This document shows positions 34,637-53,054 of a DNA stretch of 64,000 nt, piece after piece. The translations under genes and the position numbers were made by a program. The notes beneath the pieces are model-generated. The model ran no database searches. It saw only the letters and a list, made by a program, of their open reading frames with translations, and had not been told where the DNA came from. Within the stretch, counting starts at the first letter, position 1; each line of letters starts with the position of its first letter. The stretch covers positions 372,001-436,000 of the forward strand of contig NZ_WTYO01000002.1 in assembly GCF_009827515.1 (NCBI RefSeq), written 5' to 3'. The stretch is from Pelagerythrobacter marinus (GTDB taxonomy: Bacteria; Pseudomonadota; Alphaproteobacteria; Sphingomonadales; Sphingomonadaceae).

Positions 34637-34715
34637 GGGGGTGGCCAGGGCAGCCGTGCCACCCTCCCCAATCGCTTCTTTCCTACAGGGCCCCGGGGAC
34701 GCTAGCATCCCGGCG

Positions 34716-34844
34716 ATGGACCGCTCGCTCCCCCTCCCCGCCCCGTTTTCAGGCCGCTTCAGGCGGCCGGACTTTTTCTCTCCAGGACAGTGTAACATGC
34801 GGTCCATGTGTTCTCTGGCTGCGACGAACGGAGTGCTGCGATGA
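34716..34844 (+). CDS. leader ORF A with PGQCNMRSM motif, coupled to amidohydrolase
   Basis: A 42-residue frame, MDRSLPLPAPFSGRFRRPDF.. then FSPGQCNMRSM and a short tail CSLAATNGVLR. Its TGA (34842-34844) overlaps the amidohydrolase ATG (ATGA). A second frame with the same beginning, the same motif and the same stop-start overlap lies before the threonine dehydratase. Shorter starts inside the motif (ATG at 34797 and 34806) are also in frame. Between the two copies, codons for F-F/L and S/T and for FRR differ while the residues are kept or similar, which hints at coding. I do not recognise the family. Confidence 0.5.
   Translation: MDRSLPLPAPFSGRFRRPDFFSPGQCNMRSMCSLAATNGVLR
34752..34777 (+). 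terminator. hairpin and T-tract inside leader ORF A
   Basis: GGCCGC and GCGGCC form a six-base stem with a five-base loop; five T follow four bases later. It lies within the leader frame, so a translating ribosome would disrupt it. Copy B has a T-tract at the same place. Confidence 0.5.
34780..34809 (+). repeat. 30-bp element, copy A (CTCCAGGACAG...GTCCATGT)
   Basis: Thirty bases identical to 52013-52042. Contains GGACAGTGTAACATGCGGTCC, with outer GGAC/GTCC symmetry described in two parts: GGACAGTGTAA and CATGCGGTCC. CGGTCCAT here is the inverse complement of ATGGACCG at the leader start (34716). Confidence 0.9.
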
Positions 34845-35881
34845 GCGAAGCGATCCTCGAACCCGACCTGCCGATCATCGATCCGCACCACCACTTGTGG
34901 GACTTGCGGCCCCTGCTCCCCGCCTTCCCCGAACCGCGCCACCCGTTCCTGGCGGCGATCGCGGGCGCGGCCTATTACACCTTCGACCAGCTCCACGCCG
35001 ATGCGACGAGCGGCCACAAGGTGATCGCCACCGTGTTCATGGAATGCGGCGCGTTCTACGATGCCGGGCGGAGCGAGCCGTTCAGGCCGGTGGGCGAAGT
35101 CGAGTTCGCCAACGGCGTCGCCGCGCAGGGGGCCAGCGGGGCCTATGGCGCATACCGCCCCTGCGCCGCGATCGTCGGCCATGCCGACCTGGCGCGCGGC
35201 GCGGCGGCGGGCGAGGTGCTCGATGCACTGCAGGCCGCCTCCCCCCGCTTCGCCGGGATTCGCCACGCCGGGGCGTGGGATGCCGATCCCGAAGTGCTCG
35301 GCCCGCCGTTCCACGCGCCCGAGGGGCTCTATGGCGACAGTGCCTTTCGCGAAGGCTTCGCCGAACTCGGCCGCCGCGGGCTGACGTTCGATGCCTGGGT
35401 GCTCGAACCCCAGCTCGGCGACGTGATCGCACTCGCCCGCGCCTTCCCCGACCAGCCGATCGTGCTCGACCATTGCGGCACGCCGCTCGGCATTGCCGCC
35501 TATCGCGGGACCCTGCCCGAACGGTTCGACCGCTGGCGCGCGAACATCCGTGCCCTCGCCGAATGCGAGAACGTGACCGTCAAGCTCGGCGGGCTGGCAA
35601 TGGCCTTCTGCGCCATGCCCGAGGAAGGACCCGCCGCGGGGTGCGATTCGCAGACCCTGGCCGACCTGTGGCGTCCCTACGTCGAAACCTGCATCGAGGC
35701 CTTCGGGCCCGAGCGGGCGATGTTCGAAAGCAACTACCCCGTCGATCGCTGGGGGGCGAGCTACCCGGTGCTGTGGAACGCGTTCAAGCGGCTGGCATCG
35801 GGCGCGAGCGAGGACGAGAAACGCGCCCTCTTCGCCGGGACGGCGGCCCGCGTCTATGGGCTGGAGGCGCTGCTCGCCTGA
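34841..35881 (+). CDS. amidohydrolase-2 family metal-dependent hydrolase
   Basis: TIM-barrel hydrolase of 346 residues, cytosolic. The metal motif IDPHHHLWD lies at residues about 13-21, later ligands in IRHAGAW, VLDHCGTPLG and the terminal aspartate region MFESNYPVDRWGASYPVLWNAF; this arrangement is that of the ACMSD/lactonase-like amidohydrolase-2 group. Substrate unknown; such enzymes act on lactones or decarboxylate aromatic-derived acids. The ATG overlaps the stop of leader ORF A, so translation is probably coupled to it. Confidence 0.9.
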   Translation: MSEAILEPDLPIIDPHHHLWDLRPLLPAFPEPRHPFLAAIAGAAYYTFDQLHADATSGHKVIATVFMECGAFYDAGRSEPFRPVGEVEFANGVAAQGASGAYGAYRPCAAIVGHADLARGAAAGEVLDALQAASPRFAGIRHAGAWDADPEVLGPPFHAPEGLYGDSAFREGFAELGRRGLTFDAWVLEPQLGDVIALARAFPDQPIVLDHCGTPLGIAAYRGTLPERFDRWRANIRALAECENVTVKLGGLAMAFCAMPEEGPAAGCDSQTLADLWRPYVETCIEAFGPERAMFESNYPVDRWGASYPVLWNAFKRLASGASEDEKRALFAGTAARVYGLEALLA

Positions 35882-51787: not shown

Positions 51788-51912
51788 AACTGCTCCAATC
51801 TCGTGACCGAAGGGCCCGCGCCGGGCCCGTGGATAATGCCTGCCCACATAGGGGAATGCGCCGCCATCGCAATACGATCCGAAATCGGTTTCCTACCCGG
51901 CCGCGATCGGGC

Positions 51913-52068
51913 ATGGACCGGCCGATGTCCCGCCCGCGCCCCCTTCCCCGCCATGCTCGCCCGCGCTTCCGCCGGGCCGGTATCGCGCGCCGCGAACGGG
52001 GCGGTTTTTTAACTCCAGGACAGTGTAACATGCGGTCCATGTCCAACACGCAAGGGGCCGCCCGGTGA
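51913..52068 (+). CDS. leader ORF B with PGQCNMRSM motif, coupled to threonine dehydratase
   Basis: A 51-residue frame: MDRPMSRPRPLPRHARPRFR, then an arginine-rich middle, FLTPGQCNMRSM and the tail SNTQGAAR. Its TGA (52066-52068) overlaps the GTG of the threonine dehydratase (GTGA). The layout copies leader ORF A at 34716: MDR start, RFRR or FRR, T-tract codons for F-F/L, identical 30-bp motif, stop overlapping the next start. A T6 run (52005-52010) preceded by CCGCC...GGCGG arms resembles a terminator inside the frame. Family not recognised. Confidence 0.5.
   Translation: MDRPMSRPRPLPRHARPRFRRAGIARRERGGFLTPGQCNMRSMSNTQGAAR
52013..52042 (+). repeat. 30-bp element, copy B
   Basis: Identical over 30 bases to 34780-34809. 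CGGTCCAT (52033-52040) is the inverse complement of ATGGACCG at the leader start (51913-51920), as in copy A. Confidence 0.9.
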
Positions 52069-53054
52069 CGGCTCCTGCCCCCTTCTCCCCCGCCCCGAAT
52101 CGCGCGCCCGCGCGTGCCCCCGGGCGCCCGGGCGTGCTGCGCGCGGCGGAGGCCGTGGCCGCGATCCTTCCCCCCACGCCCCTGCTGCCGGTCGAAGTCG
52201 GCGGCACGCGCATCTGGGCCAAGGCGGAGATGCTGCAGCCGGTCGGCGCGTTCAAGATCCGCGGCGCGTGGCACCGGCTGAGCGCGATGGACGAAGCCGA
52301 GCGCGCACGCGGCGTGGTCGCCGTGTCGAGCGGGAACCACGCGCAGGGGATCGCCTGGGCGGCCCGGCGGCTGGGCATTGCCGCGACGATCGTGATGCCG
52401 CGCGACGCGCCCGCGGTGAAGCTGGAGGCGACGCGGGCGCTGGGGGCGGAGGTCGTGTTGTACGAACGGCCGGGCGAGGATCGCGACGAAGTCGCCGCGC
52501 GCGAGGTGGAGCGGCGCGGCGCGGTTCTGGTCCATGCCTTCGCCGATCCCTGGGTGATCGAGGGGCAGGGAAGCGCCGGGATCGAGATCGCCGCGCAACT
52601 GGGGCGCACGCCGTCGCGCATCGTCGCCCCCTGTGGCGGCGGCGGGTTGAGCGCCGGGCTCGCCCTCGCCTGCCCCGAGGCGCGCATCCACCCGGTCGAG
52701 CCGGAAGGCTGGGACATGGTCGGGCGCAGCCTCGAAGCGGGCGCGATCGTGCGCGCCGGCGACGATGCGCCGAAGACGATCTGCGACGCCTTGCAACCGA
52801 CCGCGAGCGCGCCGGTCAACCTGGCCGTGCTGCACGACCGCAGCGAACCGGGCGTGACCGTCAGCGACGAGGAAGTGCGCGCCGCGCAGCGGTTCGCCTT
52901 CGCCCGCCTGCGGCTGGTGGTCGAACCCGGCGGGGCCGCCGCGCTCGCCGCCGTCATGGCCGGGAAAGTGCCGGTGGACGACCACAGCGTCGTCATGCTG
53001 ACCGGCGGCAACTGCGACCCGCAGCGCTTCGCCGAGACGCTGGCCGGCGGCTGA
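52065..53054 (+). CDS. threonine/serine dehydratase
   Basis: PLP enzyme deaminating threonine or serine to 2-oxo acids. 329 residues, GTG start. PLP lysine Lys64 in GAFKIRGAW, SSGNHAQGIAWAARRLG, the glycine loop PCGGGGLSAGL and MLTGGNCDP. There is no C-terminal ACT domain, so it is the short catabolic-type or serine racemase-like form rather than feedback-inhibited IlvA. A proline/alanine-rich first 25 residues may be flexible. Translation appears coupled to leader ORF B. Confidence 0.9.
   Translation: MTAPAPFSPAPNRAPARAPGRPGVLRAAEAVAAILPPTPLLPVEVGGTRIWAKAEMLQPVGAFKIRGAWHRLSAMDEAERARGVVAVSSGNHAQGIAWAARRLGIAATIVMPRDAPAVKLEATRALGAEVVLYERPGEDRDEVAAREVERRGAVLVHAFADPWVIEGQGSAGIEIAAQLGRTPSRIVAPCGGGGLSAGLALACPEARIHPVEPEGWDMVGRSLEAGAIVRAGDDAPKTICDALQPTASAPVNLAVLHDRSEPGVTVSDEEVRAAQRFAFARLRLVVEPGGAAALAAVMAGKVPVDDHSVVMLTGGNCDPQRFAETLAGG

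Follow-up and report, generated by a model that had tools for sequence, protein, structure and literature searches.

The window analysed here, i.e., the whole stretch of 64,000 nucleotides, contains two short leader frames, leader ORF A before an amidohydrolase gene and leader ORF B before the gene of an ilvA-like PLP-dependent enzyme, with their features collected in Table 1. The frame of the original prediction, which starts with the ATG at 34716, has 42 codons, carries MDR, FRR, F-F and FSPGQCNMRSM, and has a TGA that overlaps the amidohydrolase ATG, is confirmed in all these particulars. The second frame about 17 kb away was also found as described, with the same 30-mer and with its TGA on the GTG of the ilvA-like enzyme, where it is noted that this GTG start is inferred from the overlap and that the gene caller places the start at 52134. 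Allowing at most three mismatches, an 18-base core has two matches in the 64-kb window versus 0.01 expected from shuffles, and a 29-base pattern has 12 copies in the window's own genome (G000), with none for the reversed pattern. Leader ORF A is one of these 12 copies of a module that is found in many sphingomonads. A hairpin similar to that of leader ORF A can be drawn by eye in the orthologous leader of the genome G006.

Table 1. Features of the two modules in the window, with positions counted from its first letter.
Feature	Position	Strand	Remarks
Promoter-like box TTTCCTACA, −35 position	34679..34687	+	
−10-like GCTAGCAT	34701..34708	+	
Leader ORF A	34716..34844	+	42 codons; ATG 37 nt past box start, near predicted transcript start; stop TGA 34842-34844 overlaps amidohydrolase ATG 34841
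GC hairpin GGCCGC-TTCAG-GCGGCC	34752..34768	+	read from sequence
T-run, first module	34773..34777	+	
Identical 30-mer	34780-34809 and 52013-52042	+	
Predicted 22-bp site GGACAGTGTAACATGCGGTCCA, units GTGTAACAT + GCGGTCCAT	34785..34806	+	within 30-mer
Amidohydrolase, coupled gene	34841..35881	+	Pfam Amidohydro_2, PF04909
Promoter-like box TTTCCTAC, second module	51889..51896	+	
Leader ORF B	51925..52068	+	ATG 36 nt past box start; open across site; TGA overlaps GTG
T-run, second module	52005..52010	+	
Predicted 22-bp site GGACAGTGTAACATGCGGTCCA, second module	52018..52039	+	
ilvA-like PLP-dependent enzyme, coupled gene	52065..53054	+	PF00291

Layout of the module and coupling of the leader frame

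The elements of the module follow one another in the order of a TKTCCTA box, a −10-like GCTA, an ATG, a T-run, a 22-bp site GGACNGTGNNNCANNYGNNNCA composed of two 9-bp units, and the gene. The layout was counted on 86 copies, which were obtained from 93 copies in seven genomes by leaving out 7 that lie in or just after terminase-like or lysozyme coding sequences. A T[TG]TCCTA box is present 70-150 nt 5' of the site in 75/86 copies versus 0-2 in control windows, and TTTT just 5' of the site in 71/86 versus 1-4, with AAAA in 0/86. At the −10 position, 22-23 nt past the box start, CTA occurs in 36 of the 75 boxes, and within +16..+34 of the box it occurs in 37/75 versus 3 in the control window. 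An ATG is located 26-52 nt past the box start in 60 of these 75 modules, at 35-37 nt in 44 of them, with none in the other 15. Based on this spacing between the box and the ATG, the leader ATG would lie at or near the transcript start. The leader typically extends some 20-35 codons 5' of the site, and the T-run is separated from the site by about 7 nt.

The sequence upstream of the T-run has a mean folding z of −0.60 relative to shuffles, as compared with −0.04 to −0.16 for the controls; a hairpin z below −1.5 is found in 16/86 copies versus 8-11 in the controls, and a stem adjacent to the T-run at p ≤ 0.05 in 14/83 versus 6-8/86. With this weak stem signal a full terminator hairpin is unproven, and the T-run was therefore no longer taken for an established intrinsic terminator. 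Among 26 locus sources (12 + 14 loci), no Rfam match above the gathering score was found; a sub-threshold match to nrdJ at L107, one among others, was judged to be due to chance. The readings of the 30-mer in terms of a sigma factor, an ECF factor, boxA or a known operator were dropped by reasoning alone.

It is noted that some copies depart from this layout. Copies that lie mostly between convergent genes (L107, L108, L112, L120, L121, L127, L128 and L152 in G011; L049 in G006; L046 in G021) have a different leader, with a TCTTTC-CA-CGTCGATC-like sequence after the −10 and mostly without a start-proximal ATG, and may represent small RNA genes that end at the site. The box TTTCCTAC is also present 5' of genes having neither leader module nor site, at L144 (lpd-like, G000) and L135, and at L139:413 and L140:9964 it is followed by another repeated motif, GAAAG(G)TCAC. 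Four loci of G031 (L188, L193, L198 and L205) have a second box pair, TCCTAC / ATCC-ACA-like, 3' of the site.

The original prediction held that the two leaders in the window suggest a shared regulatory cassette or a peptide family, and the frame counts bear on both. Denoting the PGQCNMRSM frame as frame 0, and leaving out 20 of the 86 copies that have no called co-directional gene, the frame-0 stop overlaps an in-frame gene start in 29 of the 66 gene-linked sites, versus 8 and 4 in the two remaining ones. The same bias is present among the 33 gene clusters, of which 17 have at least one overlapping member in frame 0, and 7 and 4 in the others, and among the 53 gene-linked modules with a start-proximal ATG, where that ATG is in frame 0 and open in 32, with the other frames open in 10 and 6; in the TAAC-type genomes, a third-frame stop inside the site contributes to the bias, though solely with respect to the third frame. 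These counts overturn the reading of the leader frame as a coincidence, and support the stop/start coupling as a general feature of the module, though not a universal one. The idea of a shared regulatory cassette with a coupled leader is thus upheld by both the site counts and the cluster counts. It was also anticipated that random placement, lost overlaps or frameshifts in other genomes would speak against the idea, and such cases are found in part: copies lie inside coding sequences and between convergent genes, where they have no gene coupled to them, the frame-0 overlap is missing from 37/66 gene-linked copies, and among ten leader pairs compared between G000 and G006, a member of the same genus, the lon pair has a one-base length difference that leaves the overlap in G000 only.

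By contrast, the peptide family is unsupported. From the ten G000/G006 leader pairs, four (one without a box and three of unequal length) were left out of the codon count, and the six equal-length pairs give a frame-0 count of 42 nonsynonymous to 8 synonymous changes, which is no better than that of the two wrong frames (37:11 and 41:11); the amidohydrolase leader alone has 6 nonsynonymous and 2 synonymous. The leader residues are not conserved in these six pairs, with neither regulatory codons nor a conserved peptide present. Moreover, the re-spelling of the 30-mer with a DNA-binding protein and its other frame inside a lysozyme gene, as described below, also stand against a peptide family.

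The DNA site and its putative protein partner

The 30-mer is best read as a DNA site rather than as a peptide code, because it is re-spelled across genera in step with the protein and because in the lysozyme gene its copy is in another frame. In G011, 36 copies of TGTGTCAGGTGTGTCA replace TGTAACATGCGGTCCA at many of the same genes, and this version is absent from the other 58 genomes searched for it. When aligned, the versions consist of two 9-bp units at a fixed spacing after a GGAC box, with one ruvA copy having three units. Read in frame 0, the re-spelled sites give PGLCVRCVR in G011 and PGQCSMCSI in G019, following the helix of the protein. Within the lysozyme coding sequence of three genomes, G000, G006 and G019, the site is read in a frame different from that of PGQCNMRSM; in the phage-type lysozyme copies L018, L034 and L206 (G019) it is located between two parts of the protein.

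A genome has 5 to 36 sites, mostly 5' of host genes. The site-bearing genes that recur across spellings include moaC, ilvA, folP-like, queE, ruvA, pyrC, chpT, lpd, sdhB and maiA, with the gene names given mostly by reading. Of nine scanned targets in G000, eight have Pfam matches (MoaC, PALP, PNPOx, LON, Pterin_bind, ECH, RuvA and RcnB), and the queE-like one has no Pfam match at 1e-10. Sites recur in at least two genomes for 20 of the 33 gene clusters, and for 17 of these in at least two genera.

One of the genes at which the site recurs encodes a helix-turn-helix protein, with the site inside or just after the gene in six genera of the first set. PHROG 4044, terminase small subunit (TerS), is matched by all seven aligned members, the protein of the window's own genome having E 9.1e-21, and in Pfam a match to Sf6_terminase stays below the cut-off (E 0.0066). 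A structure model of the protein has a pLDDT of 85, and in a structure search Sf6 gp1 ranks third behind two MarR proteins, all of these matches being weak (for Sf6 gp1, E 1.3, probability 0.66, TM 0.40-0.48). It is likely that this putative lone host-encoded TerS-family protein is the partner that recognises the site. In G000 its gene is flanked by genes read as uvrA-like and rlpA/argG-like, with 2.8 kb 5' of it having no called gene, and in the roughly 16-17 kb to each side no phage gene was recognised by reading. Among 50,697 phage records no relative at E ≤ 0.01 was found, and three distant ones are present in viral contigs. It is also noted that in L166 (G011) the TerS-like ORF is frame-broken just 5' of the recognition helix and the genome's 30-36 sites are intact; the break is either an assembly error or a recent loss.

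The linkage between the protein and the site was followed in 80 homologue loci from named genomes of Erythrobacter, Qipengyuania, Tsuneonella, Aurantiacibacter, some Novosphingobium and others. In 50 of them the domain match is followed on its own strand by a site, at a distance of 22-510 nt from the end of the match, whereas no site is found on the other strand, none upstream on either strand and none with the reversed pattern, so that the gene-linked sites have one orientation to transcription in 50/50. Adding 7 loci from the first set to these 50 gives a helix table of 57 rows, among which at least two records are duplicates (L160 = L216, L159 = L221); L162, L165, L170 and 30 of the 80 loci, for which the pattern gave no linked site, stand outside the table, and L220 has a near-match under a different pattern only.

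In 56/57 rows, the four variable bases in the second unit follow from the triplet of the recognition helix. The pairs are SHQ with GTCC (30 rows), SPQ with TTCC (9 rows), SAQ with TTCC (5 rows, with one TTTC), SRS with TGTC (6 rows), SYR with TGAC (3 rows), and three classes of one row each, namely SRA with TCTC, ARA with TCTC and SSQ with CTCC. The best of 20,000 permutations gives 40 rows, a figure that is no true probability since the rows are non-independent, the helix and the linked site lying in one gene and the loci sharing common ancestry. A tree constructed with the helix columns left out requires 7 changes of spelling, and at least 20 with shuffled labels. The pairing between the protein and the site is well supported.

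With this pairing the spelling in whole genomes can be predicted. For G019, the spelling predicted from the gene-linked site gave 8 copies, 7 of them beyond the gene itself; those that were read lie at pdxH, sdhB, purA, chpT, an RcnB-like gene and lysozyme; for G028 the prediction failed, with 1 copy only. A spelling-free pattern was then run on 14 further genomes, 11 with a linked site and 3 without. Among those with a linked site, the predicted spelling is present in both units in 25/25 sites for CTCC, 15/15 for TTCC, 12/12 and 9/9 for GTCC, 12/13 and 31/36 for TGTC, and 13/13 and 10/15 (G060) for TCTC, and the three TGAC genomes (G061-G063) have 13, 9 and 6 spelling-free matches, which are counts only. 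The three genomes whose fetched homologue has no site gave 0, 1 and 11 matches, the last being G070, which has 11 TTCC sites though its homologue has the helix SRQ and no linked site. The reversed pattern gave at most 1 match in the 14 genomes. The helix-predicted spelling is used throughout in most of the genomes tested.

Among 249 genomes of the family, 40 have at least 5 sites, with the reversed pattern giving at most 3. By counts taken by hand from the result tables, a homologue at E ≤ 1e-22 is present in 38 of these 40 site-rich genomes versus 81 of the 209 others; the two site-rich genomes in which no homologue was detected are G023, which is 85% complete, and G279. In G031 sites are present and none adjoins its homologue. 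For five genomes belonging to the window's genus the count is 0 or 1; four of these, G002-G005, have a homologue with the helix SRE and no site set, which may reflect either a loss of the sites or a re-spelling that escaped recognition.

Proposed working and rival readings

The module, the regulon, the covariation of protein and site and the frame bias were computed as described above. As the best explanation of them, to which we assign a probability of roughly 0.6, we propose a regulatory module of sphingomonads in which a TerS-like site past a T-run acts as a roadblock combined with a coupled leader. From the sequences we infer the transcript start, the roadblock, the attenuation, the autoregulation and the physiological role in the following way. 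The TKTCCTA/GCTA promoter would give a transcript beginning at or close to the ATG, and a short frame would then run over a GC-rich stretch, the T-run and the 22-bp site of double-stranded DNA, and would in many copies terminate at the gene's start codon. The site would be the recognition sequence of the lone host-encoded TerS-family protein, and the bound protein would halt the RNA polymerase immediately beyond the T-run, with release of a short RNA (roadblock-assisted attenuation); in the same manner the bound protein would limit the expression of its own gene. A ribosome translating the leader would drive the polymerase past the bound protein, and would then be handed to the gene via the overlapping stop and start. 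The roadblock is favoured because a polymerase paused on the T-run would face the site directly. A more far-reaching statement, to which we give somewhat less than even odds and which is thus tentative, is that a former phage packaging protein has become a host elongation regulator at near-leaderless coupled leaders, with about seven changes of specificity that the sites have followed and with a helix code that can be read.

An ordinary operator of a repressor or an activator at a second promoter, starting at or after the site, would make the T-run and the leader ORF incidental. The fixed position of the site near gene starts is consistent with such an operator, as are the lowering of transcription initiation by the SPP1 TerS on its pac site (PMC4737164) and the second TCCTAC-like box pair 3' of the site in G031, which fits a downstream promoter there. 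However, the TKTCCTA box is located upstream in 75/86 copies, about half of these boxes being followed by a −10-like CTA, and the ATG near the predicted start is mostly in frame with the site, and we consider the operator unlikely. A different role for a TerS family protein whose site is located within its terS-like gene, a position known from P22 (PMC9611059), would be the start of packaging at chromosomal pac-like sites by a gene transfer agent or a helper phage; yet the sites are tied to the promoter box, the T-run and the gene starts, the neighbours of the G000 gene are uvrA-like and rlpA/argG-like with no phage gene recognised by reading, and relatives at E ≤ 0.01 are lacking in the 50,697 phage records, which makes packaging improbable.

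A leader peptide that is functional in its own right, as a member of a PGQCNMRSM family, would account for the frame bias and the coupling, but is very improbable, considering that nonsynonymous changes are as frequent as in the wrong frames, that the readings of the re-spelled sites in G011 and G019 track the helix of the protein, and that the lysozyme copies are in another frame. Hardly credible, finally, is a dispersed mobile or repeat element, which the many near-identical copies per genome might bring to mind: by eye, only the box, the −10, the T-run and the site recur, with no common body or terminal repeats, and the copies are at the same genes across genera, also with different spelling, and covary with the protein.

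Relation to known systems and significance

Among titles and abstracts of the open-licence literature, no report of a host regulon of a terminase-family protein or of the 30-mer motif was found, and the papers retrieved with the exact motif were unrelated. An ordinary transcription-factor regulon resembles the proposed module in having one protein, many operator sites and a self-linked site, and differs from it in the position of the site relative to the T-run and the leader frame and in the terminase-type protein. Transcription attenuators with a leader ORF are exemplified by the trp type, with which the module shares a short translated-looking leader, a GC stretch and a T-run 5' of the gene; here, however, no residues outside the site are conserved, the DNA site is 3' of the T-run and the hairpin signal is weak. 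Repressors acting as roadblocks within transcribed DNA include CcpA, CodY and lac-type cases. The present site likewise lies inside the region predicted to be transcribed and in one orientation, and differs in the fixed spacing to the T-run and in the coupled leader.

The likeness to the TerS/pac systems of phages (P22, SPP1, Sf6) consists in the PHROG 4044 match, the HTH N-domain, and a self-linked site, i.e., a 22-bp site in the gene in P22 or repeats at the gene in SPP1. The P22 pac is an asymmetric 22-bp sequence inside the TerS gene (PMC9611059), and in SPP1 the repeats extend across the TerS promoters and start, with the TerS-pac complex lowering transcription (PMC4737164). The present case differs in that no phage genes were recognised beside the G000 gene, and in that each genome has 5 to 36 sites, mostly at host genes, with the specificity being re-spelled across genera.

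If the proposed module is true, it would represent a host regulon under a terminase-family protein. It would also provide a natural code from helix to base, with several re-wirings and open to test. Moreover, many native genes would then offer a setting for the ribosome-assisted passage of the polymerase through a protein block.
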